In this document: piece by piece, positions 705 through 35,495 of the stretch | Layout: every line of letters begins with the position of its first letter | How positions within the stretch are numbered: position 1 is the first letter of the stretch | Source: a virus | Reading direction: 5' to 3' (one strand) | IMG/VR virus record: IMGVR_UViG_3300027749_000248 | Location: 1 to 38,131 of that record | Length of the DNA: 38,131 nucleotides | The notes under the pieces: model-generated | The model's database searches: none | Told to the model about the DNA's origin: nothing | Seen by the model: only the letters and a program-made list of their open reading frames with translations | Translations under genes and position numbers: made by a program

Positions 705-1589
705 CTATGATTGGTCTGGTTTATTGAAATGCGTTGAAAGAGATTGGTCTACATAGTTATATGGTTCTTCACGTGGTGCAGCTCGTTTCAAATAACGATG
801 CGCAGGATCTATTTTATCGGTATGAGAGAGCATTGCACTGTGTGTTCCAACATTGTTAGAACTAGCCTTAAACATCTTGTCTTCAACAAAACTAACATAT
901 TGAACTTGCGGATTGTTTTCAATAAACTGATTAATGATATTACCTAAGAATTGAATACACTGAGAATAGGCTGCAGGATCAAATGGCATTTTCTGTTTGC
1001 CTGTACCATAGTAATGTTTCCAATCAGCTGTAAACAATCCTCCAGACTGCTGAGTATCATCTTTAAATAAACCCGGATTATCGTATTGAGGGAAGTCACT
1101 CCATAAACTACTAGGAACAATACCTAATGGTTCAGATACAGTTACAAAGTAGACTGGGTATCTTTTATCTTTTATGATTTGATTGTAGCTTTTATAAATG
1201 CCTCGGGCTGCATTAGCCCACGGTTTAGTTTTTCCACAAGGAACAAATGCTACCATTTTATATTCCGGTGGCACTTTGTGATGAACAATCTCTTGATGCC
1301 ATTTGGCAATTTCTGGATGTTTAAACAGAGCAAGAGTTTCACCCGGGGTATATGCAGTAAGAACTGGATCAAGTGTAGGGTTGCTTGCTAAACTGCGTTG
1401 CACTAGCCATTTGCGGAACTGAGGCCACATTTCTTTTGAAATGTATCTAGGTTGCCCTAATTGATCAATTTCAACTTGACTAAGATTAGCAAATGCCTGT
1501 TGTTTGTCTTCTTGACTAATGTCTGTTGGCGGTACTATGCTTTTAATAGATGGCTTTGCCGCTTCAACAATAAATTCTTTTGCTCTCAT
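705..1589 (-). CDS. DUF5591/ArcS-like protein with head-targeting-like N-terminus
   Basis: A 294-residue protein. Around residues 110-175 it has FVPCGKTKPW followed by VTVSEPLGIVPSSLW and a FPQYDNPG stretch. This order (PC-x-K-P, then S-PLG-VP, then P-YD) resembles the DUF5591 domain of archaeosine synthase/TGT-related proteins. I base this on motifs alone, and the function in a phage is unknown. The start MRAKEFIVEA resembles T4 capsid-targeting sequences, with an I-V-E cleavage-type site after residue 9. The first 19 coding bases are identical to those of the gene at 30318. A late-type octamer lies 20 bp upstream. Confidence 0.6.
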   Translation of the reverse strand: MRAKEFIVEAAKPSIKSIVPPTDISQEDKQQAFANLSQVEIDQLGQPRYISKEMWPQFRKWLVQRSLASNPTLDPVLTAYTPGETLALFKHPEIAKWHQEIVHHKVPPEYKMVAFVPCGKTKPWANAARGIYKSYNQIIKDKRYPVYFVTVSEPLGIVPSSLWSDFPQYDNPGLFKDDTQQSGGLFTADWKHYYGTGKQKMPFDPAAYSQCIQFLGNIINQFIENNPQVQYVSFVEDKMFKASSNNVGTHSAMLSHTDKIDPAHRYLKRAAPREEPYNYVDQSLSTHFNKPDQS

Positions 1590-1644: not shown

Positions 1645-2262
1645 TCATTTGGGCATCTGGGTGGTTTTAAGTTCTCGACTGCTGATGGCGAATACTCTAT
1701 GTTGGCTGTCTGCGTGTGTGGTCCAAACATACTTACCGTAGTGATCAACTTGGCTAGCATCATGTAGTTGATGTAGTTGCTCTTGTTTGAAGTCCGCATA
1801 GTATACTTTGAGTCCGCGTTGGAATGCTCTGTGCAGTTGCTTTAACCAGAACTTACGTCCTAGGGGGGTTTGTTCATTGTCTGCTACTACAGTAAAGTAA
1901 TCTTCTACGAGTTGGTCGAATAGTCTGCTGGCGAGATCACCTAGCTGGCTGCGATATTTCGGGTCTTGCCATACCCAGCGTTGCACTGCGTGGTCGCCGA
2001 GGGGGCGCAGGTTGTCACGTTCATATTCCATTAAGTATACTATGCGTTCGTCATCAGGTTGACCTTGGCTATGCACTGCCATGTATACGTAGTGTACACT
2101 GTTATCACCTTCATACAGAGTGATCTCTGGAGTTAGCTGTTCTATGGGTTCGCAGGTTCTTTTATACTTTAAAAACAGTTGATGGTTCTTATCAGGGTCT
2201 GCGGTTCTAGGTGTAACTGGTTCGATGATTTGACTCATCTCTGTGATTTCGTTGATTTTCAT
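1645..2262 (-). CDS. GNAT-like acetyltransferase fold protein, tagged N-terminus
   Basis: A 205-residue protein starting MKINEITEM, a short tag with an I-T-E cleavage-type site. The centre reads VQRWVWQDPKYRSQLGDLAS, then DYFTVVADNEQTPLGRKFW and a RAFQRGLKVYYADF strand. This resembles phage GNAT-like proteins with a position-of-substrate helix and a DxxQTxxG segment. The acetyl-CoA loop is not textbook, so catalytic activity is uncertain. Its start overlaps the stop of the upstream SGNH gene by 4 nt (ATGA), so the two are probably co-translated from the late promoter at 2996. Confidence 0.55.
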   Translation of the reverse strand: MKINEITEMSQIIEPVTPRTADPDKNHQLFLKYKRTCEPIEQLTPEITLYEGDNSVHYVYMAVHSQGQPDDERIVYLMEYERDNLRPLGDHAVQRWVWQDPKYRSQLGDLASRLFDQLVEDYFTVVADNEQTPLGRKFWLKQLHRAFQRGLKVYYADFKQEQLHQLHDASQVDHYGKYVWTTHADSQHRVFAISSRELKTTQMPK

Positions 2263-11856: not shown

Positions 11857-13158
11857 TTAAGGTTTAGGAAATGGTTGGAGAGTACCGTTTATGTTTTGGC
11901 CTGCAAGAAATTGTAAAGATTTAGGTGATTGCGTTTTTATATACGCAATAGTCTCTGGTCTTAGATAACCCAATATATACATCTGTTGCGGAGAGTGGTG
12001 TGCAAGTTTTAACTCAACTTTTGGATCAAGATGTTTAGGATCAACCAGTCTTAGCATCGATTCAAACCCTGTTCTACGACCTATTACGATATCTGCAAAC
12101 ACATCTTGTGCAACAGGATCTTGTGCATAATTAGAAAATAAATCCCTATCGTTCAAAAATGCAAGTTCCAGTTGGTCTTTCGTCGGGTGAGGAATTGTTT
12201 TAATAAAACTCGGTTTTGCAACAATTACAGCATCAATCTGTTCAGCAGTCGGGTTACTAATAAATTGCAGGAATTCAGGATGTGTTGCGAGATAATCATT
12301 TTGGAAAAGTGGATCCATGTTTTTCATATCTTCTGGTTTAATATTTTTAGTGTACGTTCTAAGTAAGTTATGAAAACTTCTGTCAGAAAAATCGTTATGT
12401 TGAGTTCTATCAAAGAAATGAAGTAATGCATATTCAATTTCTGGATCACGTTTACCAGTGTAAGCATGACGATTAATAGTTAGCTTGTCAATGATTGTAT
12501 CATTATATGTTTTTGTTTTTTGTTCTTCAGGTGGTTCTACTTCAACATTATCAATATTGCGATTGTTAAGTGCAGCACGAATAATTTCGTGTGCAGGTAC
12601 TCCAGTTTCTTCTAAGAATTGTTCTGCTGTTATTGGATCATCTGATGCAGTAAACAATTCAACACTGGTCGGATGATTTCTATAAAATGCAATTGCCCAC
12701 ATATCATCACCGTCACCGTCGCCTTCGTAGTTAAGGAAACAATAGATTAAAATTACACCTTTTCCAGTGTATTCTTCCCAATACTTGTGTTCTGCTTTAG
12801 TAGTACACCAGTCGCTGTGCCTACCAATATTAATACTGGCATTTTTGTTTAATGGCATAACCCCGGTAATGTTATTGCGCTCGAATACCGTTACAGCATC
12901 TTCTTCTCGTTTTACTAATTTCTTTTTCTGTGTTTTACTTTGTTCTTGCGATTTATCAAATACGTATCTTTGGAATTCATACCAACCTTTTTTACGCCAT
13001 GCATCGATATTGCGCTCTGCACCTTGTACCTGGTTGCGATCAACAAGTTGTCTATACTTGCTAATCATATCTTTTACCTGTTCCGGTCTTCCATATTTTG
13101 AAAAATCAATTTGGGCTTCTTTATACCCGTCAATTAAAAATAATTCTCTTAAAAACAT
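11857..13158 (-). CDS. Unknown large protein with helical repeats, late-expressed
   Basis: 433 residues starting MFLRELFLIDGYK, weakly similar to the tagged N-termini. Residues about 105-150 hold INIGRHSDWCTTKAEH and WEEYTGKGVILIYCFLN, a W-C-T...Y...G-x-L-Y pattern seen in phage proteins of unknown role. The C-terminal half has helical repeats, for example ISNPTAEQIDAVIVAKPSF and IPHPTKDQLELAFL, resembling DUF4116 repeats. It is a lone minus-strand gene with a late-type promoter. It could be a packaged effector; this is inference. Confidence 0.65.
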   Translation of the reverse strand: MFLRELFLIDGYKEAQIDFSKYGRPEQVKDMISKYRQLVDRNQVQGAERNIDAWRKKGWYEFQRYVFDKSQEQSKTQKKKLVKREEDAVTVFERNNITGVMPLNKNASINIGRHSDWCTTKAEHKYWEEYTGKGVILIYCFLNYEGDGDGDDMWAIAFYRNHPTSVELFTASDDPITAEQFLEETGVPAHEIIRAALNNRNIDNVEVEPPEEQKTKTYNDTIIDKLTINRHAYTGKRDPEIEYALLHFFDRTQHNDFSDRSFHNLLRTYTKNIKPEDMKNMDPLFQNDYLATHPEFLQFISNPTAEQIDAVIVAKPSFIKTIPHPTKDQLELAFLNDRDLFSNYAQDPVAQDVFADIVIGRRTGFESMLRLVDPKHLDPKVELKLAHHSPQQMYILGYLRPETIAYIKTQSPKSLQFLAGQNINGTLQPFPKP

Positions 13159-13239: not shown

Positions 13240-13267
13240 ACTTGCTAACTTAACGAGAACTACAGCC

Positions 13268-13501
13268 ATGCATAGAGTAAGATTGCCGCGCACAGAATCA
13301 TCCTGGGCAGAAATAGAAGAAATGAAAGACTGGTGCCGATATAATATTGGCCCAGGACGAGATCCAAAAACCAATCAGGTTAATTGGCAAACACGAATTG
13401 GTTATCGATATTTTATGGGGTTCTTAAACTCTCAGCCAATTGCGTTTTATTTTAAAGAGCCCAAACACGCAACATTGTTTACCCTTCGTTGGTATTATTA
13501 A
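13268..13501 (+). CDS. WF-x-L-x-W family small protein (divergent)
   Basis: 77 residues. SSWAEIEEMKDWCRYNIGPG carries the family helix, and FKEPKHATLFTLRWYY is a variant of the signature with LF for WF. The frame is open far upstream, but the consensus promoter at 13211-13239 fixes the gene start near 13268. Confidence 0.7.
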   Translation: MHRVRLPRTESSWAEIEEMKDWCRYNIGPGRDPKTNQVNWQTRIGYRYFMGFLNSQPIAFYFKEPKHATLFTLRWYY

Positions 13502-23648: not shown

Positions 23649-24005
23649 ATGAGAGCAAATGAATTTATTAACGAAGATGCAATTGGTACTTCACCAAAGC
23701 GTCCTCGTAGAGAAGGAAGTCGACATAGCCGCGGACACGAGCCGCAGGCAAGATATACAGAAGTAGCTGTTAATGAAGAAGATGTTACCGAAGAGAAAAA
23801 AAGCACAACTGCAATTTGTAAAAGTTCTAAAACAAATGACCAGCTAGGTGCAAGCATGTTATCAAAATGCAAATCACTTGGTTTGCGTGCAAGAGAAGGT
23901 AACAAATCTCATTTAGTAAACGGTAAGCGTATCAAAGTTGGTGGTAAAAAGATCAAAGGAAAAGTACATGGCGGACCATTGCCAGACTGGGGTGAACATA
24001 AATGA
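23649..24005 (+). CDS. Basic tagged protein, candidate internal head protein
   Basis: 118 residues starting MRANEFINED, closely like the tag at 1589 and 30318, with an I-N-E cleavage-type site after residue 9. The mature part is basic (KRPRREGSRHSRGHE) and ends NGKRIKVGGKKIKGKVHGG, suggesting DNA contact inside the head. An exact late promoter lies upstream, and ATGA couples it to the transglycosylase. The role as an internal protein is inferred. Confidence 0.7.
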   Translation: MRANEFINEDAIGTSPKRPRREGSRHSRGHEPQARYTEVAVNEEDVTEEKKSTTAICKSSKTNDQLGASMLSKCKSLGLRAREGNKSHLVNGKRIKVGGKKIKGKVHGGPLPDWGEHK

Positions 24006-24817
24006 GATTTGACGAATTTAAACAATTAAACGAAGACGCTGGATTTTTCCTAGTAGTTCCAAAAGACCGCAGTTGTCCAGAAGTTGCAGACCTTCAAAAA
24101 GTACTAAAAGCGTTTGGTCACAGTTTAGGTCCGCCTGACGTCGACGGTGTTTTGGGTCGATATACTACAGCAGCACTTAAAGGCGCACAAGCAGAGATTG
24201 GGTTACCAGAGACCGGTGTGCCCGATGAAAAGACTATCGAGCTGTTAAACCTAGCATTAAGAGAAGTACCAGAAATCGCAACTAAGCTAACAAAAAGTAC
24301 AGTAGCTGATGTTAGATCAGCAAGTGGTGCAGACAATATCGATGTTAGCACTATACAAGATCCGGACTTTAATAAAAAGCTTGACAACATTGCAAATCAG
24401 TTAGGTGTTAACGCTAGCGACCTGTTAGCGATTATGAAACAAGAGTCAGGTGTTAATCCGCATGCACGTAATAAACAAGGCGGCGCAACTGGGTTAATTC
24501 AATTCATGCCTAACACTGCTAGACGATTAGGAACAACCACAGATGACTTAATAAAAATGACAGCAGTTCAACAGTTAGACTATGTTTATAAATATTTCAA
24601 AATGGTTGGCATTAGACCCGGAATGAAGCTAGGTGACTTATACATGGCAGTGTTCATGCCGAAATATGTAGGACACGGCGATACAACTGTATTAGGTGCA
24701 TCAGGTGCAAGTGGTTTCTCAGGTAAAGTGTATGCACAGAACAAAGGTTTAGATAGAAACAAGGACGGCACTATTACTATTGCCGATGTAAAAAATTCCG
24801 TAGCCCGCTTCGCATAA
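24002..24817 (+). CDS. Lytic transglycosylase with PG-binding domain and tagged N-terminus
   Basis: 271 residues. Tag MRFDEFKQLNED with an L-N-E site; a peptidoglycan-binding domain (about 26-88; VADLQKVLKAFG, then DGVLGRYTTAALKGAQ); an SLT transglycosylase domain with catalytic E148 in KQESGVNPHARN followed by GGATGLIQFMP. A calcium-type loop DRNKDGTITIADV ends it. It cleaves peptidoglycan. The tag suggests head packaging and delivery with DNA rather than use as an endolysin; a baseplate location is the alternative. Confidence 0.85.
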   Translation: MRFDEFKQLNEDAGFFLVVPKDRSCPEVADLQKVLKAFGHSLGPPDVDGVLGRYTTAALKGAQAEIGLPETGVPDEKTIELLNLALREVPEIATKLTKSTVADVRSASGADNIDVSTIQDPDFNKKLDNIANQLGVNASDLLAIMKQESGVNPHARNKQGGATGLIQFMPNTARRLGTTTDDLIKMTAVQQLDYVYKYFKMVGIRPGMKLGDLYMAVFMPKYVGHGDTTVLGASGASGFSGKVYAQNKGLDRNKDGTITIADVKNSVARFA

Positions 24818-24824
24818 TTAAATA
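24817..24824 (+). promoter_or_regulatory. Weak late-type octamer ATTAAATA, leaderless type
   Basis: ATTAAATA overlaps the stop of the transglycosylase gene and is followed by TAGA and ATG at 24829. Two mismatches from consensus make this a weak call; the spacing matches other leaderless candidates. Confidence 0.35.
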
Positions 24825-24828
24825 TAGA

Positions 24829-25377
24829 ATGAATATAACAGGAAAATTATTAATAGCACCACCATCTGTAAAAGGCAACTTTTGGTATAAAACAGTAGTT
24901 ATGATCACAGAGCATGATAAGGAAGGCAGCATAGGCATAGTATTAAACAAACGCAGCACTATGACAGTAAATGAGTTCGGACAAGAACTCGGGTACTATC
25001 TTAATCTGCCAGGCTACGTTTATATCGGAGGTCCAGTTAATCCCAAAAGTCTTAGTTTCTTACATACTAATGATTGGGCATGTAAGAACACGCTAAAAAT
25101 TAACGATGAGTTTTCAGTTAGCTCTGCAGATGATATCTTACCTAGACTTGCAGCAGGAGATTCTCCTCGTAAATGGAGAATATTACTTGGCATGTGTGGT
25201 TGGAGTCCAGGGCAATTGCATGATGAGATCAACGGTGCTCACCCTCGCACACATAGAGATAGTTGGTGTATCGCAACGCCGACTATTAAATTAGCATTTA
25301 GCAACGATAACAAAGAGCAATGGTCAGCAGCAATTGCACAATCTGCTGAAGACTTTGCTAAAAACATCTTGACATAG
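24829..25377 (+). CDS. YqgE/AlgH family protein (UPF0301)
   Basis: 182 residues. GKLLIAPPSVKGNFWYKTVV, EGSIGIVLNKRSTMTVNEF, YIGGPVNPKSLSFLH and RILLGMCGWSPGQLHDEI are the ordered landmarks of YqgE/AlgH. The length equals that of cellular members. Its biochemical role in bacteria is unclear (regulation of alginate in Pseudomonas). It has no ribosome binding site. Its placement between virion genes suggests late expression. Confidence 0.85.
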   Translation: MNITGKLLIAPPSVKGNFWYKTVVMITEHDKEGSIGIVLNKRSTMTVNEFGQELGYYLNLPGYVYIGGPVNPKSLSFLHTNDWACKNTLKINDEFSVSSADDILPRLAAGDSPRKWRILLGMCGWSPGQLHDEINGAHPRTHRDSWCIATPTIKLAFSNDNKEQWSAAIAQSAEDFAKNILT

Positions 25378-25397
25378 TTACTATCTTATAGTACAAT
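25369..25397 (+). promoter_or_regulatory. Sigma70-type promoter inside the late block
   Basis: TTGACA (25369-25374), 17-nt spacer, TACAAT (25392-25397), overlapping the stop of the YqgE gene and preceding the HNH gene. Confidence 0.75.
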
Positions 25398-25428
25398 ACA
25401 AATACATAAACAACCAACAGGAGTTTTT

Positions 25429-25941
25429 ATGGCAGACACCCTCGTTTTAAACAGCGATGGTATGCCAGTTAGTGTATTACCACTAAGCACAATCAGCTGG
25501 CAGGAATCCATCAAATATATAGTTTTAGATAAGGCCGATATTTTATTATGGCATGAGGACTGGATCGTTAGTTCAGCATCATGGTCAACTGCGGTCCCAT
25601 CAGTGATTATGCTTCGTGAATACATGAAACCAAAATCAACTCTGCGGTTCAGTCGATCAAACGTTTTCTTACGTGACGAAGGGAAATGTTTATATTGTGG
25701 AATTAGCTTAGAAAGCAGACATGCAACATTAGATCATGTGCATCCTGTGAGCAAAGGTGGTACAACAACTTGGGAAAACTGCGTAACTGCGTGCGGGCCT
25801 TGCAATGTTGCCAAGGGTGATAGGACTAAAATGAAACCTAAATTCAAACCTTACAAGCCAACTTACTATGAATTAGTAAATAAACGTAAGAAACAATATT
25901 TCAACGTTAAACACACAGCATGGTTAAATTTCATAGTATAA
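25429..25941 (+). CDS. HNH endonuclease
   Basis: 170 residues. C87-x-x-C90 (CLYC), D102-H103 (LDHVHPVSKGG) and C122-x-x-C125 form an HNH zinc-bound nuclease of the type common in bacteria and marine phages. The N-terminal 75 residues (NSDGMPVSVLPLSTISWQE) belong to the same family. Ribosome binding site CAGGAG. It has its own sigma70-type promoter, unlike neighbouring late genes. Confidence 0.88.
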   Translation: MADTLVLNSDGMPVSVLPLSTISWQESIKYIVLDKADILLWHEDWIVSSASWSTAVPSVIMLREYMKPKSTLRFSRSNVFLRDEGKCLYCGISLESRHATLDHVHPVSKGGTTTWENCVTACGPCNVAKGDRTKMKPKFKPYKPTYYELVNKRKKQYFNVKHTAWLNFIV

Positions 25942-26348
25942 AAAGAACCCTTTGGTTCATATTAGGTATATTAAGTGTAGGCATGGCGTATGTCGGTGTA
26001 GTGGTACCCGGCATACCTTACTCTACTTTTGTAGTATTAGCTGCATACTGTTTTGCTAAAAGCAGTCCAAAAATGCATGCATGGCTCTACTCTCACAAAC
26101 TATTTGGTCCATTCTTAATAGGGTGGTCTGAAAAGCGTATCTTCCCACAAAAGCTAAAATACTTTATGTTAGTCACGATGAGTTCAAGTTTAGTAATGAT
26201 GTGGTTCACTACACATAATATCAAAGCAATCATCTGGACAGGTGGATTTATGATACTTGTTGCAATATGGGCATGGCGTTATCCTCGTTCTGAAGAAGAA
26301 TATACATGCAGAATCACACAAGGCAAACGTATAGGATGGTTTAAATAA
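25920..26348 (+). CDS. DUF454 (YbaN-like) membrane protein
   Basis: 142 residues. TLWFILGILSVGMAYVGVVV then PGIPYSTFVVLAAYCFAKSS is the DUF454 signature. WLYSHKLFGPFLIGWSEKR follows, then two further membrane spans. It is an inner membrane protein of unknown role. The start overlaps the HNH gene by 22 nt, so it may rely on coupled translation. Confidence 0.82.
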   Translation: MVKFHSIKRTLWFILGILSVGMAYVGVVVPGIPYSTFVVLAAYCFAKSSPKMHAWLYSHKLFGPFLIGWSEKRIFPQKLKYFMLVTMSSSLVMMWFTTHNIKAIIWTGGFMILVAIWAWRYPRSEEEYTCRITQGKRIGWFK

Positions 26349-26351
26349 ATA
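26344..26351 (+). promoter_or_regulatory. T4-late-like octamer AATAAATA containing the stop codon
   Basis: AATAAATA includes the TAA stop (26346-26348) of the DUF454 gene; the secreted nuclease gene starts 19 nt later. Confidence 0.55.
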
Positions 26352-26370
26352 CACGACTATTGAGGTATTT

Positions 26371-27144
26371 ATGAAAACACTATTAGCATTATTATTACTT
26401 TTACCTAGTCTTGTACTAGCAAACTCTATCGATCAGCAGTGTCCGCAATTTGTAGTACGTGGTGCGCCTGTTAGTCCACTAGCAGACAATGCTACACAGT
26501 ATATATGTAAACAAAATTACGCAATCCATTATAGATTTGATACAAAAACTGCAGAGTATGTTGTAGAACATGTTACTAAAGAATCAGTGATCGGGCCTGC
26601 ACAAAGGGAAGACGACTTCCGTCCAGACCCTGCTATTGCAAAATCAAATCAATCCGTGTTATCGGACTATGCCGGACATCCATACGACCGCGGCCATTTA
26701 GCACCGGCCGGTGATAATAAACAAACTAAAGAAATAATGAGCGAAAGTTTCTTTTTATCTAACATGGTTCCGCAAACTCCAAATAACAACAGAGGCATCT
26801 GGAAACAACTAGAAACAGCAGTGCGTAATTTAGTTGTGGAAGGCAAAGACCTGTATGTTGTCAGTGGAACACATTATCAACCTGGATACTTAACTATCGG
26901 AAACAATGTCGGTGTACCTACCCATTTATGGAAAGTTGTTGTCGATAGAGGAAGCCAAACAGGTATTGCATTTATATTCCCAAACAAAGGTTTACCGGTT
27001 AAAGACTTACCTAAGTATGCAACATCGATTGCTGAAGTAGAAAAACTTACAGGTATAAACTTTATGCCCGAATTAACTCTAGAACAGCAGCTACAAGTCG
27101 AACAGGAATTTCATGTTATTGATTGGTTAGGATTAACTATATGA
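26371..27144 (+). CDS. Secreted DNA/RNA non-specific endonuclease
   Basis: 257 residues. The signal peptide MKTLLALLLLLPSLVLA is removed near Ala17. The NUC motif D106-R107-G108-H109 (YDRGHLAPAGDN) and FLSNMVPQTPNNN with N140 and E148 match the beta-beta-alpha metal nucleases such as Serratia nuclease. It would act in the periplasm or outside the cell, for example degrading incoming DNA of rival phages or host DNA at lysis. Late-type promoter upstream. Confidence 0.88.
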   Translation: MKTLLALLLLLPSLVLANSIDQQCPQFVVRGAPVSPLADNATQYICKQNYAIHYRFDTKTAEYVVEHVTKESVIGPAQREDDFRPDPAIAKSNQSVLSDYAGHPYDRGHLAPAGDNKQTKEIMSESFFLSNMVPQTPNNNRGIWKQLETAVRNLVVEGKDLYVVSGTHYQPGYLTIGNNVGVPTHLWKVVVDRGSQTGIAFIFPNKGLPVKDLPKYATSIAEVEKLTGINFMPELTLEQQLQVEQEFHVIDWLGLTI

Positions 27145-27374
27145 AAATAGAAGAACTTACTGAATCTCACAAAGATTTAGATAGATATACAGCGTATGCA
27201 AAAACACATTACAGTGAAACAGATCCAACTACTGCAGTATTACAATTATTAGTACGCAGTATTGAACACGGTAAATCAGTCGATGCTGAACAAACTGCAG
27301 CTATTAGGGAATTACAAAAAGAAGTAGAAGCGTTAAAAGGAGCTAACGCTTCTACCATAGCCCCTACTGTTTGA
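27141..27374 (+). CDS. Small tagged protein
   Basis: 77 residues starting MKIEELTESHKDL, with an L-T-E site after residue 8. The mature part is helical (AVLQLLVRSIEHGKSVDAEQ, then IRELQKEVEALKG), a short coiled coil. The ATG overlaps the nuclease stop as ATGA. Its 3' end overlaps the converging ALA synthase gene by 11 bp. Confidence 0.6.
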   Translation: MKIEELTESHKDLDRYTAYAKTHYSETDPTTAVLQLLVRSIEHGKSVDAEQTAAIRELQKEVEALKGANASTIAPTV

Positions 27375-28563
27375 TATCAAACACGATTTTTAGAGCATTA
27401 ATTAAATCTTCAATCATCCCATCGTCATGTAATGGTGTTGGCGCAAAACGCAAACGTTCCGTTCCTTGGGGCACGGTGGGATGATTTATAGCTTGAACAT
27501 AGATATTAAAATCATTTAACAAACGATCACTAATTTCTTTTGCTCTGGTCGCATCTCCTACTAGCACAGGTACAATGTGTGTTGTGCCATCCATTAATGG
27601 AATTCCAGCTTTTCTCATTCTGTGTTTTAATTTTCTAACACGATCTTGAAGACGTTCCCTAATTTCGTTATGCTCCTTTAGATACTTAACTGCTGCCAGC
27701 GCACCGGCACATGTAACTGGACTCATACTTGTTGTAAATATAAATCCTGCTGCAATGGATCGAATTGCATCGATCACAACTGCATCTGCTGCAACATAAC
27801 CGCCCTGGACTCCATACGCTTTACCTAAGGTGCCATTGACTATGTCGACCCTTCCTTGTAATTGTAATTCTTCGAGCTTTCCTGCCCCGTGTTCGCCGTA
27901 TAAGCCCACTGCGTGTACTTCATCTAAGTATGTAATTGCAGAGTATTGATCAGCTAAGTCGCAAATTTCTTTGATAAGACTTACATCTCCATCCATAGAG
28001 TAAATTGATTCAAATACAATACAAGGTACATTCTTGTTTGCTGCTGCACGTTTTAAACATTCTTCTAGGTCATCTAGATCATTATGCTTAAAAATTTGTT
28101 TAGCAGCCTTACTATGACTCATGCCTACGATCAAACTATTGTGATTTTTACTATCACTGATAAATTCAATATTAGGAATAATTTTTGCTAGCGCAATTAA
28201 ACTCCACTCATTCGCAACATACGCACTTGTAAACAACAATGCCCGTTCTTTTTTATGCAAAGATGCAAGTTCATATTCTAAAGCAACGTGATAATGACTA
28301 GTTCCGGAAATGTTCCTAGTACCACCAGAACCTGCACCTGTCATATCTAAAGCAGTATGCATCGCATCTAAGACAATTTTATGCTGTCCCATACCTAAAT
28401 AGTCGTTGCTACACCAGTTAACAATACTTTTAATAGAATACGGTCCATACCAAATAGAATAAGGAAACTTGCCGTTTTCACGTAGCACATCATTGAAGAT
28501 GCGATACTTGCCTTGTTGTTTAAGGTTTTGAATTAGTGTTGTAAATGTTTCGTGGTTAATCAT
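27364..28563 (-). CDS. hemA: 5-aminolevulinate synthase (C4/Shemin pathway)
   Basis: 399 residues, normal bacterial length. GTLGKAYGVQGGY holds PLP-lysine K248; the LGK form separates ALA synthase from KBL and BioF. D214 and H217 lie in YLDEVHAVGLYGEHGAG, and R21, T82 and N84 (GTRNISGT) match the succinyl-CoA contacts of bacterial enzymes. It makes ALA from glycine and succinyl-CoA, the first step of haem and tetrapyrrole synthesis. All key residues are present. The frame runs to 28617, but MINHETF at 28563 fits family starts. No ribosome binding site is visible. It is the only minus-strand gene in the late block. Confidence 0.92.
   Translation of the reverse strand: MINHETFTTLIQNLKQQGKYRIFNDVLRENGKFPYSIWYGPYSIKSIVNWCSNDYLGMGQHKIVLDAMHTALDMTGAGSGGTRNISGTSHYHVALEYELASLHKKERALLFTSAYVANEWSLIALAKIIPNIEFISDSKNHNSLIVGMSHSKAAKQIFKHNDLDDLEECLKRAAANKNVPCIVFESIYSMDGDVSLIKEICDLADQYSAITYLDEVHAVGLYGEHGAGKLEELQLQGRVDIVNGTLGKAYGVQGGYVAADAVVIDAIRSIAAGFIFTTSMSPVTCAGALAAVKYLKEHNEIRERLQDRVRKLKHRMRKAGIPLMDGTTHIVPVLVGDATRAKEISDRLLNDFNIYVQAINHPTVPQGTERLRFAPTPLHDDGMIEDLINALKIVFDIKQ
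27368..27383. repeat. 16-bp perfect palindrome at convergent stops
   Basis: TGTTTGATATCAAACA covers the stop region of gene 27141-27374 and the last codons of hemA. It may act as a bidirectional transcription end without T-tracts or as a protein site. Confidence 0.5.
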
Positions 28564-28571
28564 AGTACAGC

Positions 28572-28579
28572 TATTTAAT
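28572..28579 (-). promoter_or_regulatory. Weak late-type octamer ATTAAATA before hemA
   Basis: On the minus strand ATTAAATA, eight nt before the hemA ATG at 28563, back-to-back with the plus-strand octamer at 28580. Two mismatches from consensus. Confidence 0.35.
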
Positions 28580-28587
28580 AATAAATA
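28580..28587 (+). promoter_or_regulatory. T4-late-like octamer AATAAATA
   Basis: AATAAATA, 18 nt before the start at 28606, with AAGGAT as ribosome binding site. Confidence 0.55.
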
Positions 28588-28605
28588 TACGATAAGGATA
28601 CAAAT

Positions 28606-28989
28606 ATGAGAGTTCAAGATATAATCAGAAGTTTAATCGACTTTATCGACAATGTTGATTCAACGCATGTTGCACCGATTGATACAATTGATCACAAAGC
28701 AAGCCCGTTAACACATGCCGGGGATGACATAAATCGATTTAAACAAATTGTCGATTTAGCAGATAGCCCGTATAGACATGCATACACTAACGAACCAGTT
28801 CCGGCTTATGCTGATTTAGATTCGGTTACTATTCATGCAGGCGGTGGGATGAATGGCCCAAAACATCCTGCTGATATTAGAGTCAAAGATCCAAGTGCAT
28901 ATCCGCATTTAATAGATAAAGAAATAGAAGAACCAGTTTCAGCTCATCCTGAACATATTGTAATGATTAAAGCAATGAGGGGACAATAA
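28606..28989 (+). CDS. Putative virion protein
   Basis: 127 residues starting MRVQDIIRSLIDFIDN, weakly like the tags but without an (L/I)-x-E site. DINRFKQIVDLADSPYRHAY and YADLDSVTIHAGGGMNGPKH are Gly/His-rich; the layout matches structural-region proteins of T4-like aquatic phages as I recall them. TAATG overlap with the next gene. Confidence 0.6.
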   Translation: MRVQDIIRSLIDFIDNVDSTHVAPIDTIDHKASPLTHAGDDINRFKQIVDLADSPYRHAYTNEPVPAYADLDSVTIHAGGGMNGPKHPADIRVKDPSAYPHLIDKEIEEPVSAHPEHIVMIKAMRGQ

Positions 28990-29249
28990 TGTCAGCTAAC
29001 GGAATCGCATGGTTATCAACCAAAGAAGCAAAGCAAGCAGCTAAACTTGCATTAGCAAAAGCAAAACGTCAAGGTAAAACTGTAGCAGCTGATGGTACAG
29101 TCACTGGAAGTATAGATACTACTAAACAATATTATCGTACTAGAAACAACTACGATATTACGCAATTACCTACAAAATATAACGGTGACGGAATTACTGA
29201 CAATCCTAATGTAGGCGGTTTAGTAGAAGGCCGTCCTTGGACTACATAG
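28989..29249 (+). CDS. Putative virion-associated protein
   Basis: 86 residues. IAWLSTKEAKQAAKLALAKA is a Lys/Ala-rich helix; YYRTRNNYDITQLPTKYNGD follows, and VGGLVEGRPW ends it. Similar STKEAKQxAKLAL proteins occur next to tail genes in marine T4-like phages, to my recollection. It directly abuts the next gene. Confidence 0.6.
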   Translation: MSANGIAWLSTKEAKQAAKLALAKAKRQGKTVAADGTVTGSIDTTKQYYRTRNNYDITQLPTKYNGDGITDNPNVGGLVEGRPWTT

Positions 29250-30254
29250 ATGCCATACGTACACGATCGAAGTGATGTAAATATAAACAATTTGCATCAT
29301 GCAATGGAACTTGTAGGTGACTTGCCGCATGTTCGTGTTACATTAGGTGCTGATAATATTACAGTTACCGGTAGTGTTAACATTGCATCTGAAATTAAGA
29401 TTAACAATACTGAGTTACAAAGTATTCCTGTACATCTAACAGATGATCCGATTGCAGTAACTGGAACATTTTGGCAAACTACACAACCGGTTAGTTTAAC
29501 TACATTACCTGATAGCAGTGTATCAATTAAAGCAGGATCTAATCTAATTGGTAAAGTTGATGTAAACAACTGGCCGGCTACTCAACCAGTATCTATTGCA
29601 AGTATGCCAACTACCCCAGTTACAGGAACATTTTGGCAAACTACACAACCAGTTAGTGGAACAGTTACTATACAAGACAGTGGCGGAAGCATCACAGTGG
29701 ACGGTAGCGTAACAGCCACCATTACAGATGTTATCACAGTTCTTACGACTGAAGATGCCGGTAGTTTTTATGCGTTCAACAACCACGCTGCTAATTCCAA
29801 TCGTGGATGGACTATGGACGACACTATGCGTCCCGTGGTTAGTTTTCAAAATAGCAGTGCTAATACTGCAGACATGATCAAAATTGTAGAATATGAAATT
29901 GGTAACAACAATGCTAATCAAAGTACTATTATATATGAATGGTATGAAGGCCCACTAACTATCAGTGGTGCTGCAATACCTGCATGGACTACATTTGGTG
30001 TACACAGTCAATATCGTGTTTACCAAGATCGTTATTCAAGTAATCAGGGCAATACCTTTACAGTTCCAACCGGTAATGGTACTTACCTAAGACACAGTGG
30101 TGTTATCATTGGTAAAAATACTTCGGGTGACGAAGGCCCAGCAAACCTATATGGTGGCAGCAGTCCTAATATGCTAACCTTGTGCATGCGCCGTGTTGAC
30201 AATGCTACTAAATTAGATGTGTGGTTTGCATTTACTGTTAAAGAACTAGCTTGA
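29250..30254 (+). CDS. Virion structural protein with repeated beta motifs
   Basis: 334 residues. The N-terminal half has a recurring motif, PVTGTFWQTTQPVS, clear at two places, with weaker copies (WPATQPVSIASMP). The C-terminal half is beta-rich (TIIYEWYEGPLTISGAAIPA, then YLRHSGVIIGKN). The beta-repeat plus globular end fits a tail or capsid decoration protein. There is no enzymatic motif. Confidence 0.7.
   Translation: MPYVHDRSDVNINNLHHAMELVGDLPHVRVTLGADNITVTGSVNIASEIKINNTELQSIPVHLTDDPIAVTGTFWQTTQPVSLTTLPDSSVSIKAGSNLIGKVDVNNWPATQPVSIASMPTTPVTGTFWQTTQPVSGTVTIQDSGGSITVDGSVTATITDVITVLTTEDAGSFYAFNNHAANSNRGWTMDDTMRPVVSFQNSSANTADMIKIVEYEIGNNNANQSTIIYEWYEGPLTISGAAIPAWTTFGVHSQYRVYQDRYSSNQGNTFTVPTGNGTYLRHSGVIIGKNTSGDEGPANLYGGSSPNMLTLCMRRVDNATKLDVWFAFTVKELA
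29463..29494 (+). repeat. 32-bp in-gene repeat, copy 1
   Basis: GGAACATTTTGGCAAACTAC onwards; identical to 29625-29656 except one base. Encodes GTFWQTTQPVS. Confidence 0.8.
29625..29656 (+). repeat. 32-bp in-gene repeat, copy 2
   Basis: Offset 162 nt (54 codons) from copy 1, 31 of 32 bases identical. Suggests growth of the protein by duplication of a beta module. Confidence 0.8.
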
Positions 30255-30317
30255 TAACTATGAAAAAGAGCACAGCAGAAGCATTAAGATAAGTACAGTA
30301 TAGCTAAAGGATTTATA

Positions 30318-30593
30318 ATGAGAGCAAAAGAATTTACAATCAATGTACCCATTAACATTAAGATAAATGGTGATGGCGATCCTGAGATTGATGTAGCAGG
30401 CAACGACGATAGTGATCCAGATGAAAATCCAATCTTTGTTTCACCATTACAGCAAGAGTTAGAACTTAAGAAAGCTGATGCTGGTAAAGACAGTGCAGTT
30501 ATTGATAAAATAACAGCACCAGATGATATCGGCGAAGAACCCAACAACGAACTAAATCGGTTGAAACAATTATTGCAGCGGCATGCACAATGA
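30318..30593 (+). CDS. Acidic protein with MRAKEF start
   Basis: 91 residues starting MRAKEFTINV. The first 19 coding bases are identical to those of gene 705-1589, although no (L/I)-x-E site follows. The rest is acidic (DGDPEIDVAGNDDSDPDENP) with FVSPLQQELELKKADAGK and a C-terminal NELNRLKQLLQRH helix. Likely virion-associated. ATGA overlap with the zincin gene. Confidence 0.65.
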   Translation: MRAKEFTINVPINIKINGDGDPEIDVAGNDDSDPDENPIFVSPLQQELELKKADAGKDSAVIDKITAPDDIGEEPNNELNRLKQLLQRHAQ

Positions 30594-30991
30594 AAGTCAA
30601 AGAAATATTAACAGAAGGGCTAGCACACGACGAGGCTCAACTTATTATAGAAAAGTTTATCAAGTTTGCTGCTGATAACTTAAACCTGCAAGACTTGCCA
30701 GACATTAACTTAGTTACCGGGTCGAATCGTTCTGTAGAACAAAGTTCATTTGGTGGTTATGGTAATCGTAGCATTAACATATCAGTATCAAATAGACATG
30801 TCATGGATGTATGCAGAACATTAGCACACGAACTAGTTCATTACAGACAAGATCTAAATAATGAATTAACTAACGACAGCGGCCGTGACGGTAGTCCACA
30901 CGAAAACGAAGCTAATGCTCAAGCGGCTGTTATTATGCGCAAATGGGGTAAAATGCACCCTAACTTATTTGGCAAGCAGGCTATCGGCTAA
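30590..30991 (+). CDS. Tagged zincin-type metalloprotease
   Basis: 133 residues. Tag MKVKEILTEG with L-T-E after residue 9, then a domain with H80-E81-L-V-H84 (TLAHELVHYRQD) and a later Glu in SPHENEANAQAAVIM as probable third zinc ligand. This is the HExxH zincin arrangement in a very small protein. It might be packaged and act on host proteins after injection, or process virion parts. Normal ATGA coupling. Confidence 0.75.
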   Translation: MKVKEILTEGLAHDEAQLIIEKFIKFAADNLNLQDLPDINLVTGSNRSVEQSSFGGYGNRSINISVSNRHVMDVCRTLAHELVHYRQDLNNELTNDSGRDGSPHENEANAQAAVIMRKWGKMHPNLFGKQAIG

Positions 30992-31003
30992 GAGACAACT
31001 GTT

Positions 31004-31258
31004 ATGAGAAAAAGTACACGATCGATATTACAAGAACTTAGTGACATTGGCATCGGCAGAGATACCGACCTTGTCGTCGAAAGTCGAGGTTCTAACATCA
31101 TCCAAAGTGCAATTAACTTACTTGAAATGATTCGAGAAAACTACGACATGGAAACTGCTGGAGAATTAGAGCGCCGCTTTATTAACAGCATTAAAGCAGG
31201 GGACGGTGCAAAGTTTAAACGCGGTATTAAACGAATACAAGAAAGTAAAGAAAAATAA
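31004..31258 (+). CDS. Small helical protein, possibly tagged
   Basis: 84 residues starting MRKSTRSILQELSDIG, with an L-Q-E site after residue 11. VVESRGSNIIQSAINLLEMI then LERRFINSIKAGDGAKFKRG is helical and basic at the end. I associate this layout with hypothetical proteins near tail genes in T4-like aquatic phages. Confidence 0.6.
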   Translation: MRKSTRSILQELSDIGIGRDTDLVVESRGSNIIQSAINLLEMIRENYDMETAGELERRFINSIKAGDGAKFKRGIKRIQESKEK

Positions 31259-31345
31259 GATTCGAGCTATCTTTTCAAATCAAAAGCTAAATAATATTAC
31301 AAGCTCACAGAGTCGTGGGTAGAAAAGCATATAGGAGAATACATC

Positions 31346-31870
31346 ATGCCTTCATTAATCGGAACAGCAGTTACAGCTAACTATTTAAAAACAACCCCAA
31401 CAACACAATTTGGTACACGCGCATTACGTATCATTAAAATTACTGCAGGTACAGCAGGCGATAGCGATCTTGACTTTACAAGACAAGCGTTTGTAGTTAC
31501 TGGTGCAACAACAGGTGCGTTCACTGGAACATACGCTGACAGCGATAGTTATTACTCAGCAGCAGTTCGTGCAATTCAAACAGTTGCAGAAATTTATGCT
31601 ATTGGTCAACCAAATGCAACTGACTTTATTGCAGTAGTTGCGTATGATACAGGCAACGACAGCGGAACTGGTTCAAATGCAAACACTCAAGATAAAACTT
31701 GGTCTGATTTAGAATCAGCATTAACAGATGCATTGTCAGTTCGTTTAGGTGATAAAACACCTGTAGGAAGTGCTGGATTTGTTTATAACGGTACTGTTGC
31801 AGTAACAGCGATCGACGTAGCAGCAGGCGTAAACAACTTTGTTGGCGCTGGTCTTGGTACTCTTTCTTAA
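31346..31870 (+). CDS. Virion structural protein
   Basis: 174 residues. SLIGTAVTANYLKTTPTTQF then GTRALRIIKITAGTA, Thr/Ala/Gly-rich, with VRAIQTVAEIYAIGQPNATD and VNNFVGAGLGTLS. Low Cys and Lys, typical of abundant surface-exposed virion proteins. Ribosome binding site AGGAG. A strong terminator follows, so it probably ends an operon. Confidence 0.65.
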   Translation: MPSLIGTAVTANYLKTTPTTQFGTRALRIIKITAGTAGDSDLDFTRQAFVVTGATTGAFTGTYADSDSYYSAAVRAIQTVAEIYAIGQPNATDFIAVVAYDTGNDSGTGSNANTQDKTWSDLESALTDALSVRLGDKTPVGSAGFVYNGTVAVTAIDVAAGVNNFVGAGLGTLS

Positions 31871-31903
31871 TAGTTAACTATTAAAATTCTCAGGGATGGG
31901 ATC

Positions 31904-31935
31904 AAAGGGGTTCACTTTATGTGAGCCCTTTTTTT
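31904..31935 (+). terminator. Intrinsic terminator
   Basis: Twelve-pair stem (31904-31915 with 31921-31932, two G-T pairs), loop TTTAT, then a T run to 31935. It follows the virion gene ending at 31870. Confidence 0.88.
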
Positions 31936-31941
31936 ATGGCT

Positions 31942-31949
31942 GTTAAATA
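31942..31949 (+). promoter_or_regulatory. Weak late-type octamer GTTAAATA, leaderless type
   Basis: GTTAAATA, then CTAC, then ATG at 31954, directly after the terminator. Two mismatches from consensus; the position supports it. Confidence 0.4.
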
Positions 31950-31953
31950 CTAC

Positions 31954-32361
31954 ATGAACTATAAATTATACACACTTGTTGATATTACTCGTACTGGGCA
32001 GTATCGTGCCGAACCAGGTAAAGAATCAGCAAGATGGAAAGAGCAAAACTTTAACACTATTCTACAGACGTTAGGTCTTCGAGCAAATTTAGCATATTTC
32101 GAAAATCCTATTGTCACAGAAGTCCGAGGTAGTTTAGTCGGCTTCGACACGGAAGAAATTATTAGACTGTGGAGATTTGATTTTGCTACGGAACGTGAAA
32201 ACTTTTATGAATCTGAAGACGGTGATCCCGTTGGATTTTTAAAAGAGGATTTCGAACTCGTTCCGTTTATTCAGGGCTTAGATGAGCTACTAGAGCAGCA
32301 GCAAGCAGTGTTTATTACTTACGGTACGAATAAGAATATTGTTTTCCACAAAAAGCAATAA
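31954..32361 (+). CDS. Phage-type conserved virion-region protein
   Basis: 135 residues starting MNYKLYTLVDITRTGQYR, then KEQNFNTILQTLGLRANLAY and a RGSLVGFDTEEIIRLWRFDF segment. To my recollection, proteins with YTLVDIT...QNF-T-LQT-GLR are frequent near baseplate genes of T4-like aquatic phages; the function is unknown. An in-frame ATG lies at 31936, but the terminator T-run ends at 31935, so I place the start at 31954. Confidence 0.7.
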   Translation: MNYKLYTLVDITRTGQYRAEPGKESARWKEQNFNTILQTLGLRANLAYFENPIVTEVRGSLVGFDTEEIIRLWRFDFATERENFYESEDGDPVGFLKEDFELVPFIQGLDELLEQQQAVFITYGTNKNIVFHKKQ

Positions 32362-32364
32362 ATA
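32357..32364 (+). promoter_or_regulatory. T4-late-like octamer AATAAATA containing the stop codon
   Basis: AATAAATA includes the TAA stop (32359-32361) of the upstream gene; the next start is 24 nt further, with CGGAGA as ribosome binding site. Confidence 0.6.
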
Positions 32365-32388
32365 TAAAAAAGAGCTACGGAGAAGACA

Positions 32389-32643
32389 ATGGCTGCAGAG
32401 CGACGAAGAACAGCAAACCCAAGCGATATAGAAAAAAACAATTTAGAAAGCCACGTTGAATTGTGTGCATTGCGCTATCAAACTTTAGAAACTCGACTAG
32501 TCGGTATCGAAGACACTGTTAAAAAACTTGCTTCAAAACTTGACACTAAACATGCCGATATGAGTAAAGTAATATTTGGTGCTGCTGCAACTATTATTGC
32601 AGGCATTGCATCAGTAATAGTTACTATCCTAATTAAATTTTAA
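32389..32643 (+). CDS. Coiled-coil protein with C-terminal membrane anchor
   Basis: 84 residues. A helical segment HVELCALRYQTLETRLVGIE and VKKLASKLD, then a membrane span FGAAATIIAGIASVIVTILI. Helix plus C-terminal anchor resembles XhlA-type lysis accessory or holin-like proteins; this is tentative. One base separates it from the next gene. Confidence 0.6.
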   Translation: MAAERRRTANPSDIEKNNLESHVELCALRYQTLETRLVGIEDTVKKLASKLDTKHADMSKVIFGAAATIIAGIASVIVTILIKF

Positions 32644-32644
32644 C

Positions 32645-33352
32645 ATGCGATTTCTTGAATTATCAATACCTGCAATACCTTACAATGATACCCTTAATCC
32701 GTTATTATGGGAAGATGATCACTTAAAAACTGAAATACGATATAAATTAATGTTTATCGCCAAACATTTTGCACAGTTTTTAAATGTTTCAAATCTTAAC
32801 TTAGAAGATATTACAATTAGCGGAAGTAATGCAAGCTTTGGGTATTCAGATTATTCAGACATTGATTTGCACCTAGTTGTTAAGATGCCGCCGGATAATC
32901 CAGACCTTGCAGAATTATATAATGCTAAAAAGAACCAATACAACTTTAAATATGATTTAAGTGTCAAAGGCATTGCTGTAGAATTATATGTACAGGACGG
33001 TAAACAGCCGCATCAGTCTGCAGGTATATATAGTATATTAAATGACACCTGGGTAATCAAACCCAAACATCAAACACCAGTAGTCAAAGATGCCGAAGTT
33101 AAAAGCAAAGCGCGTAATTATGCAAGTAAAATTAATCAAGCATTGCAATCATCAGATTTAAAATCTGCACAGGAAACATTAGATGATCTATCACGTTTAC
33201 GCAAAGCCGGATTAGAACAAGGTGGCGAATTTAGTATCGAAAACCTAGCATTTAAATTATTAAGATCACGTGGCAAGATTGACAAATTAAGAAAACACGT
33301 TGACACACTACAAAGCAAAGAGCTTAGTCTCGGAGAAAAACATGAAGATTAG
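32645..33352 (+). CDS. Nucleotidyltransferase-fold protein
   Basis: 235 residues. G60-S61 then SDYSD72-I-D74-LHLVV is the polymerase-beta-type nucleotidyltransferase motif G-S-x(10)-D-x-D. VKGIAVELYVQD may carry the third acid. The last 90 residues form helices. The N-terminus MRFLELSIP resembles the tags, with a possible L-W-E site after residue 23. By analogy to the T4 Alt enzyme it could be packaged and modify host targets; this is inferred. Confidence 0.75.
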   Translation: MRFLELSIPAIPYNDTLNPLLWEDDHLKTEIRYKLMFIAKHFAQFLNVSNLNLEDITISGSNASFGYSDYSDIDLHLVVKMPPDNPDLAELYNAKKNQYNFKYDLSVKGIAVELYVQDGKQPHQSAGIYSILNDTWVIKPKHQTPVVKDAEVKSKARNYASKINQALQSSDLKSAQETLDDLSRLRKAGLEQGGEFSIENLAFKLLRSRGKIDKLRKHVDTLQSKELSLGEKHED

Positions 33353-33803
33353 AGATATCGTTGAGAACTGGCAGGTAGCAAGCTCAGATCAAAACGGGAT
33401 TAAAGCAATAGACCCAAAAACAAAAGCTGAATTAAGTTTACCAGCTGATATGCAACAATCATTACAATCAGATCCTTCGAACCCTAACAAGTTTACGCTA
33501 AACCCACAAGCAATTGCAAGTACAGATAACCCTGCACAGCAACAACACACTGGACCTGCAGTTGGAGCAGAGATCGAAATACCCATGGCAACTACTGAAA
33601 ACTCGGAAGAGGAAGAAGAAGCTGATTTAATTCCACACAATCATCCAGTCGGAGGTGACGGCGGAGATGATTTTGTTTTAGATGTTACTAATGGTAGAGA
33701 TCCAGATAGTTTCGAAAATCATGCTAAACATGCATACCAAGCAGTGAGTCACAGTGCATTACCAGAAGGGCTAGCTGCAATTATTAAGTTGTCAGGTCTA
33801 TGA
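33342..33803 (+). CDS. Acidic tagged protein
   Basis: 153 residues starting MKIRDIVENWQ, with an I-V-E site after residue 8. The mature part is Gln/Asn/Pro-rich then acidic (NSEEEEEADLIPHNH, GGDGGDDFVLD). Upstream codons are open, but MKIRDIVE at 33342, preceded by GGAGAAAA, is the clear start. Overlaps the nucleotidyltransferase gene by 11 nt. No catalytic motif. Confidence 0.65.
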   Translation: MKIRDIVENWQVASSDQNGIKAIDPKTKAELSLPADMQQSLQSDPSNPNKFTLNPQAIASTDNPAQQQHTGPAVGAEIEIPMATTENSEEEEEADLIPHNHPVGGDGGDDFVLDVTNGRDPDSFENHAKHAYQAVSHSALPEGLAAIIKLSGL

Positions 33804-34006
33804 AACTAAACGAGTTGATCGATAGTTTTGAAATTTGGACAACTAACGAAGAAGCAGTATTGTTGAAAAAATTAAAATACCCAGTTAAACTAGCCCAGCT
33901 AAACGAACATGATCAAGTCAGAGTTCAGGCGATGATTCGTAAAAGTTTGGTAACTAAAATAGGACACAAAGACCCTATGGTGGTTGCAAATGAAAGACCA
34001 AACTAA
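33800..34006 (+). CDS. Small protein with tag-like start
   Basis: 68 residues starting MKLNELIDSFEIW, similar to the tags though no clean (L/I)-x-E site. Basic C-terminus (VQAMIRKSLVTKIGHK). ATGA overlap with the gene before; the next gene starts inside its 3' end. Confidence 0.55.
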   Translation: MKLNELIDSFEIWTTNEEAVLLKKLKYPVKLAQLNEHDQVRVQAMIRKSLVTKIGHKDPMVVANERPN

Positions 34007-34430
34007 AACAATTAAAGAACTAGCAAGCTACTTTGATAAAGAATTACAAACAAAATTACCTATATCAGTATTACCAGATGGCTCATTAGTTTATAAAAAC
34101 TTTTTAGTAAGGCAATTAGACAATGAAAACTGGGGTGTATTTAATATCGAGTCTAAAGATTTAGTTAATCAATATTATTTAAAAAGTTGTGCGTTAGTTG
34201 CTGCAAAAGCATACAATTATAAACACTTTAACAAATATTTTGAAATTGAAAATTTAGATAAAAAATATCAAACAAATTACCATAACTTCCTAGTATTAAA
34301 GAACAATATTAAGTCAGTTAGTGATTCGGAAAAGTATCATGTAATGCTAACTAGGCTAGAAGAAAGTAGCCAACAAGCGTACTACTATAAGCAACTGATT
34401 TCTCGATTACTTCGTAGAACTTTTGTATAA
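33990..34430 (+). CDS. Unknown virion-region protein
   Basis: 146 residues. IKELASYFDKELQTKLPISV, then VYKNFLVRQLDNENWGVFNI and CALVAAKAYNYKHFNKYFEI. The C-terminal half is helical and ends RLLRRTFV. I do not recognise a family. The TAA stop lies inside the late promoter octamer of the next gene. Confidence 0.6.
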   Translation: MKDQTKTIKELASYFDKELQTKLPISVLPDGSLVYKNFLVRQLDNENWGVFNIESKDLVNQYYLKSCALVAAKAYNYKHFNKYFEIENLDKKYQTNYHNFLVLKNNIKSVSDSEKYHVMLTRLEESSQQAYYYKQLISRLLRRTFV

Positions 34431-34433
34431 ATA
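34426..34433 (+). promoter_or_regulatory. T4 late promoter consensus TATAAATA containing the stop codon
   Basis: Exact TATAAATA; its TAA (34428-34430) is the stop codon of the upstream gene. The next start is 30 nt downstream, with AAGGGAAA as ribosome binding site. Confidence 0.72.
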
Positions 34434-34463
34434 CGTAATAAGAAATAACGAAGGGAAACCATC

Positions 34464-35495
34464 ATGCAGATTAAAGATTTATCACAGCCTATAACTAGTA
34501 AAAAACTAAACGAAAGTTTAGCAAAAAACTTTGGTTATAAATTAAAATTAGAACAATTTTCAGACGTGCAATTAGAAGATGTGCGTAATAGACTTCGCAC
34601 TGAACTAAGCCAAATGGAAATGAACGAAAGCTACGACAGTATTTTAGAAAGCCCTGCTTATCAAAAAACTCGTGCATTATTAGACGTTGTTAACCAAGCG
34701 TTATCAGAACGCGAAATGAACGAATCATACGAGCAAGACGAAGTAACTGGCAAAGTTACCAGTAAAAAAGATTACTCAGGTAGTGCAGATTCTTCTAAAG
34801 CTAAAAAAGATAAAAAACCTAAAAAAGAAGTTAACGAAGCTGCATTAATTGCAACTATTCGTCAACGTGCAGAAGCGGCATCAATTCCAGCAAGTTGGAT
34901 TCAAAGTGCGTTAAATCGTATTCGATTAGGTGAATCGGACAGACAAGAATTAAAAGCAGAATTAAGATTGCGTTACGATCTTAATGAAGCGCAGGCAAGC
35001 TGGTTGCTAGTTGAAGGCGAAGAAACAAAAGCAGAGAATATCATCGCATCAAAAGACATGATTGACCGTATTACAGGTTGGTTAGAAGATGTTGCTGCAA
35101 TGAAATCAGAGCAGCTTTTAGAATTATTAGACTCTATAAGAGAACAACAAGGCAGCGATGTTGCCCAAAAATATCAAGATGCAGTTAAACCTGCATTAGA
35201 AGCAATCTATACAGCATTAGAAACAAGCCGTCAAGGTTTGTCACAAGGGCTTGCAGTTGTTTCAGGCAGAGAAGTCGAAACATTAGGCGCACCAGTAAGC
35301 GGCGCAATGGGCAGTGAAATGGGCAGTGAAATGGACGCAGCTTTAGGAGGTGAATCACCTGCAGGTCCAGAAGGTCCAGGTTTACCAGGTGGTGAAGAAC
35401 TTCCTCCTCCGTCTACTGAAGCGGGTCGTATGAAACGTGAAAGCGTCGAGTATAGCCGTAAATTAGGCATGTTGTTAAGCTCAAAAAAAAAGTAA
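34464..35495 (+). CDS. Virion/prohead-core-like protein, probable frameshift parent
   Basis: 343 residues starting MQIKDLSQPITSKKLNES, with several L-x-E sites (KLNE, ILESP, ALSERE). Two NES repeats (MEMNESYDSI, REMNESYEQ) precede a Lys-rich linker. The middle is helical (DMIDRITGWLEDVAAMKSEQ); the C-terminus is Gly/Pro/Met-rich and ends SRKLGMLLSSKKK. The many cleavage-type sites and helical composition suggest a scaffold or core protein. Nine A residues at 35483-35491 just before TAA form a slippery site for -1 frameshifting into the frame that ends at 35842. Confidence 0.7.
   Translation: MQIKDLSQPITSKKLNESLAKNFGYKLKLEQFSDVQLEDVRNRLRTELSQMEMNESYDSILESPAYQKTRALLDVVNQALSEREMNESYEQDEVTGKVTSKKDYSGSADSSKAKKDKKPKKEVNEAALIATIRQRAEAASIPASWIQSALNRIRLGESDRQELKAELRLRYDLNEAQASWLLVEGEETKAENIIASKDMIDRITGWLEDVAAMKSEQLLELLDSIREQQGSDVAQKYQDAVKPALEAIYTALETSRQGLSQGLAVVSGREVETLGAPVSGAMGSEMGSEMDAALGGESPAGPEGPGLPGGEELPPPSTEAGRMKRESVEYSRKLGMLLSSKKK

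Follow-up and report, generated by a model that had tools for sequence, protein, structure and literature searches.

We analysed the 38,131-nt viral record IMGVR_UViG_3300027749_000248 (the window), in which a first-pass annotation had described a short N-terminal tag shared by unrelated late proteins and proposed that these proteins are packaged in the phage head and injected. The tag is a fixed-position consensus, M-[KR]-x-x-[DE]-[FIL] (residues 2, 5 and 6; the strict rule), sharper than the loose pattern first described, and in most of the strict genes of the window an (L/I)-x-E triplet follows. We consider it probable that this N-terminus is a capsid-targeting sequence of the T4 type, carried by an expanded set of proteins, and that the window comes from a giant phage. 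Packaging of the tagged proteins in the head is well supported, cleavage of the tag is likely, and injection into the host with the DNA may follow, by analogy with T4 only. The idea of T4-type targeting has stood up well, on the fixed positions, the likeness to T4 proteins, the gp21 cassette of relatives and virion mass spectrometry (MS) of phage PA5oct.

Genes were called with a simple purpose-written caller, which gave 72 in the window; start codons outside the window were taken as called. Eleven of the 72 window genes obey the strict rule, where the internal rate predicts 0.19 (p ~1e-16), and in seven of these 11 an (L/I)xE triplet ends at residue 8-11, mostly 8 or 9. Lys or Arg stands at residue 2 in 23/72 genes, and 11 of those 23 have [DE][FIL] at positions 5-6, while other positions have a mean of 0.69 (p 1.6e-11; p 4.6e-12 with the internal conditional rate). 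As the window is also the source of the consensus, these p-values are optimistic, and it is therefore the tests on other genomes that carry weight. Long-contig relatives (G001, G003, G004 and others) were retrieved using the nucleotidyltransferase and the zinc metallopeptidase (zincin) of the window as queries. Among their genes with Lys or Arg at residue 2, the tag was present in 25/90 in G001 (p 7e-17), 14/79 in G003 (p 2e-8) and 14/60 in G004 (p 1e-8). In the 372 kb of G001, 25 of 425 genes are tagged, and (L/I)xE lies within the first 20 residues of 21 of them, compared with 82 of the 400 untagged genes (p 1e-10); G003 and G004 have 14 tagged genes each, of which 11 and 10, respectively, contain the triplet.

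For a blind test, the exact 21-mer ATGAGAGCAAAAGAATTTATT, which encodes MRAKEFI only, was searched in viral contigs. It occurs 103 times on 102 contigs, and all 103 occurrences are starts of open reading frames (ORFs) that have at least 60 residues or run off the contig. Residue 9, outside the probe pattern, is Glu in 92 of the 103 occurrences and in 54 of 61 distinct N-termini, and the 95 closed ORFs fall into 16 architectures. A control 21-mer with the same codons reordered had zero matches in viral contigs; a second 21-mer, of the MKIKEI type, was found on only 9 contigs with mixed outcome. Among 13 large contigs carrying the first 21-mer, the gp21 family is present in 7, exactly the 7 that have gp23.

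In T4 it is established that an N-terminal segment directs proteins to the capsid and that the protease removes it (PMC3012670, PMC5694885), and the segment is sufficient for packaging a foreign protein (PMC3012670). The T4 record gives the N-termini MKTYQEFIAEA for the internal proteins IPII and IPIII (the first-pass annotation had given that of IPIII correctly), MKTFKEFTSTTTPVSTITEA for IPI, MELITELFDED for Alt, MAKINELLRES for gp24 and MLKEQLIAEA for gp22. Like the proteins described here, IPI-IPIII and Alt have an N-terminal segment of 10-20 residues with an acidic-aromatic/aliphatic pair and (L/I)xE, placed in front of unrelated bodies. The spacing here is K2/E5, one residue shorter than the K2/E6 of T4, and the window genes starting at 30318 and 34464 are similar to the longer form seen in IPI (compare MRAKEFTINVPIN, the start of 30318, with IPI MKTFKEFTSTT). 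The relatives have about 14 to 26 tagged proteins per genome whereas T4 has four such proteins, and the tags here are also found on enzymatic cargo and on a class that has no cleavage triplet. SPN3US and phiKZ, giant phages too, likewise package numerous proteins in the head and have a prohead protease (PMC5694885), but their propeptides are mostly much longer and have another cleavage motif; the present lineage would show that propeptides of giant phages can also be short and in the style of T4. ADP-ribosyltransferases and polyvalent proteins packaged in phage heads are other enzymes predicted to be injected, in jumbo and other phages; those predictions rest on gene neighbourhood and domain fusion, and term searches of the two papers returned no N-terminal tag (PMC9503650, PMC7824862).

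The window is a fragment and contains neither the head cassette nor a gp21-family protease, whose absence from the record is explained by that fragmentary nature. The protease family, a search for which the first-pass annotation had proposed, is found in the long-contig relatives G001-G004 and in the phages PA5oct and Atu_ph07, with T4 gene order as a further likeness. In G001 the portal is followed by a gp67-like protein (78 residues), a gp68-like protein (288 residues), the protease, a putative scaffold and, last, gp23. Profile matches identified the portal, the protease and gp23, and position served to assign the gp67-, gp68- and scaffold-like proteins, helped for the gp67-like one by its similarity to gp333 of PA5oct, which has the corresponding location. 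The putative scaffold (G001 86110-87204) contains 19 (L/I)xE triplets against 7.2 in shuffles, rank 1 of 289 proteins, and (L/I)xE followed by Gly near residue 18-21 of gp23 is kept in G001, G010, PA5oct and RaK2. This enrichment and the gp23 start suggest, indirectly, that the protease of this lineage would cut at (L/I)xE.

PA5oct, Atu_ph07 and RaK2 have late blocks similar to that of the window, with a primase-helicase and a homologue of 31004, plus an exonuclease in PA5oct and Atu_ph07, and MS-identified virion proteins are available for all three; the PA5oct block also has homologues of 31936, 34464 and 35880. When the motif was relaxed a little and combined with (L/I)xE, and MS flags were used as in the record, the tag was present in 5/93 MS-flagged PA5oct proteins vs 2/352 unflagged ones (p 0.005), an enrichment among the proteins detected in the virion. 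The presence of (L/I)xE within residues 1-20, taken by itself, did not separate the two groups (p 0.65). In Atu_ph07 the spelling differs (M[KR]WxQLxE); 26 genes fit a widened motif, 24 of them with xxE, and 16 of the 26 lie in three MS-rich clusters (p 3e-6), which are reported to hold most of its virion proteins (PMC6102473).

We propose that, at the late stage of infection, a stretch of 8-11 N-terminal residues (up to about 17 in 34464) would bind the prohead core beside the scaffold, and that shell formation would enclose a mixed cargo of peptidoglycan hydrolase, zinc peptidase, and basic and acidic proteins. The gp21-family protease, which would also process scaffold and gp23, would then cut after the Glu of (L/I)-x-E, and the mature cargo, left among the DNA, would enter the next host with it. 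Products of a second class of genes (28606, 30318, 32645 and 33800) would carry the targeting half with no cleavage site nearby.

Several points weigh against this proposal. Cleavage and injection are steps that we infer, and none of the four genes of the second class has (L/I)xE within its first 20 residues. A single architecture, one protein family, accounts for 76 of the 95 closed ORFs of the blind search, and the scaffold was assigned solely from where its gene lies and how many (L/I)xE triplets it contains. Just 7 tagged genes underlie the PA5oct enrichment. The Atu_ph07 motif was widened to accept Gln at residue 5, the test was made per cluster with the borders of clusters 2 and 3 estimated, and its significance is inflated by a tandem paralogous array of about 11 genes. 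Finally, RaK2, which serves as a negative control, shows no tag enrichment (8 at positions 5-6 vs about 5 elsewhere) and has the same protease family and head cassette as the tagged relatives; gp21 therefore does not imply the tag, and the trait is lineage-dependent.

The tag could instead be a docking peptide for another virion site (inner shell, portal, neck or baseplate), kept by structural proteins and with (L/I)xE forming part of a binding helix. The second class would suit such a role, MS detection in PA5oct cannot tell head from tail, and some internal head proteins of SPN3US and its relatives are unprocessed (PMC5694885). We nevertheless regard docking as unlikely: the Glu is well kept after a blind seven-residue match, and the residues behind it vary; the triplet is also over-represented in the putative scaffold and recurs at the start of gp23; several tagged bodies are enzymes; and the form matches that of the T4 internal proteins, Alt and gp24. 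Common descent, with the tagged genes being diverged paralogues that keep an ancestral N-terminus with no targeting role, would account for the Atu_ph07 array of similar tagged proteins and for the nearly identical first 20 bases of three MRA(N/K)EF genes of the window; it is very improbable given bodies from families as unrelated as transglycosylase, zincin, GNAT, HicA-like, endonuclease VII-like and zeta-toxin-like proteins, and given that zincin orthologues swap the spelling of the tag on one body (MKVKEILTE vs MRANEFLSE). Chance or a generic N-terminal bias (K/R at residue 2, AT-rich starts, early acidic residues) can appeal to the shortness of the motif, the frequency of K/R2 in the window and the RaK2 counts, but it was rejected by the replications in other genomes, positions 5-6 exceeding all others, given K/R2, in four sequences, and by the blind 21-mer with its scrambled control, which leaves it a negligible probability.

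Seven window genes had originally been named as tagged (on the plus strand unless noted; a slash marks the predicted cut). Five fit the consensus with [LI]-x-E by residue 8-11: a basic protein of 118 residues (23649..24005, MRANEFINE/DAIG), a peptidoglycan hydrolase with PG_binding_1 and SLT transglycosylase domains (24002..24817, MRFDEFKQLNE/DAG), a 77-residue protein (27141..27374, MKIEELTE/SHK), the small zincin (30590..30991, MKVKEILTE/GL) and an acidic protein (33342..33803, MKIRDIVE/NWQ). The basic domain of 23649 stands alone behind its tag in the window, whereas in G003 it forms the C-terminus of a tagged protein of greater length. The sixth, 34464..35495 (virion structural family phrog_14154), has a conserved longer variant, MQIKDLSQPITSKKLNE/SLAK, with D/E at 5, L/F at 6 and LNE at 15-17 all kept in the homologues listed; it is a remote homologue of the MS-detected PA5oct gp247. 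The seventh, 31004..31258 (virion structural family phrog_11854), was dropped, as its conserved start, MRKSTRSILQEL, has no tag and lacks the acidic-hydrophobic pair. Two full fits on the minus strand had been overlooked: a 294-residue protein (705..1589, MRAKEFIVE/AAK), 97% identical to G001 321650-322540, which has the same tag and a DUF5591 match, and a 205-residue protein of phrog_1349 (1645..2262, MKINEITE/M). A weaker variant is present at 11857..13158, also on the minus strand (MFLRELFLIDGYKEA, MFLRELFLID), its G001 orthologue starting MLLRELFLLNE/GYKEA.

The four genes of the second class, previously listed as looser matches, fit at positions 2, 5 and 6. The start of 28606..28989 (MRVQDIIRSLI) is kept in six relatives, and its body is weakly similar to part of the MS-detected PA5oct gp335. 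That of 30318..30593 is near-invariant across relatives, and that of 33800..34006, MKLNELIDSFEIW, is kept in many; the latter protein resembles, by eye, the virion structural protein gp046 of Atu_ph07. In 32645..33352, nucleotidyltransferase-like by similarity, the start is degenerate (MRFLELS) and varies among several orthologues, and distant orthologues in Cr30, S-CRM01 and L036 have starts with LxE at other lengths; its structure model was of low quality (predicted template modelling score 0.52) and was left unused. The predicted cargo set keeps the transglycosylase, the zincin and the basic and acidic proteins; the nucleotidyltransferase has a tag-like start. In the zincin, which has HExxH plus Glu, the predicted fold resembles minigluzincins (abylysin, selecase; best E 1.4e-3). 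Its tag is strongly conserved despite predicted disorder: alignment entropy is 0.49 bits in the tag columns, 1.78 in the linker and 0.82 in the remainder, and in the predicted structure the local confidence score (pLDDT) is <50 at residues 1-7, with the fold starting near residue 11.

Most window genes from 22.8 kb onward have homologues in G001, in the same order. At the level of near-DNA comparison the window matched no phage, and tblastn with the 34464 protein found no match. The late-promoter consensus TATAAATA occurs 4 times in the window vs 4.6 expected, so a late-promoter idea has no support from it; two of the four matches sit just upstream of 23649 and 34464. Among the tagged genes lies a minus-strand gene for a pyridoxal phosphate-dependent enzyme (27364-28617), resembling 5-aminolevulinate synthase by eye and with 75-83% identity in G003 and G004.

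Cargo functions are assigned here by similarity. Tagged proteins of the relatives include putative GNAT-like, HicA-like, DUF6321, endonuclease VII-like and peptidoglycan-binding proteins and weak metallopeptidase matches, and those of Atu_ph07 a zeta-toxin-like domain and a weak ART-PolyVal match; PADLOC gave no match on the cargo tested. A more tentative extension is that T4-related giant phages may use the capsid-targeting sequence as a plug-in delivery label, placed with a lineage-specific spelling in front of whatever domain is of use (peptidoglycan hydrolases, metallopeptidases, acetyltransferase, HicA-like, zeta-toxin-like and ADP-ribosyltransferase-like domains), with dozens of proteins delivered per virion and some retaining the label. 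Injected phage proteins matter against host defences, but beyond the T4-like coliphages few have been recognised. A tag that can be read in the sequence would let genomes of uncultured giant phages yield lists of predicted injected proteins, many of no known function, and would constitute a testable loading code, apparently varying between lineages.

The HicA-like protein of G001 (246143-246385; locus L056 11183-11425) has a capsid-type tag, MRVSEILEGIELDEA. The Atu_ph07 array (NC_042013 39484-50592, minus strand) comprises about 11 tagged proteins, mostly MRWxQLxE; three that were tested had no Pfam match, and many have a YRGM-type segment suggestive of ADP-ribosyltransferases. In G010, two small proteins (L277 451-858, minus strand; L278 508-855) have a gp23-like segment, LPATIAKDIVGVQPMT and YPQLLAQSILGVQTMT respectively, fused to a domain ending WFxLRW or the similar WMTLKW. 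The segment corresponds to the gp23 region that forms the T4 Gol peptide, and we would guess at a decoy or sensor role. An array of small paralogues ending WFxLRW(G/S) in the window (8167-13501, plus strand) apparently belongs to the same family, and a DWRxPT motif is shared by about nine small paralogues arranged in tandem at 3002-5698 on the minus strand.

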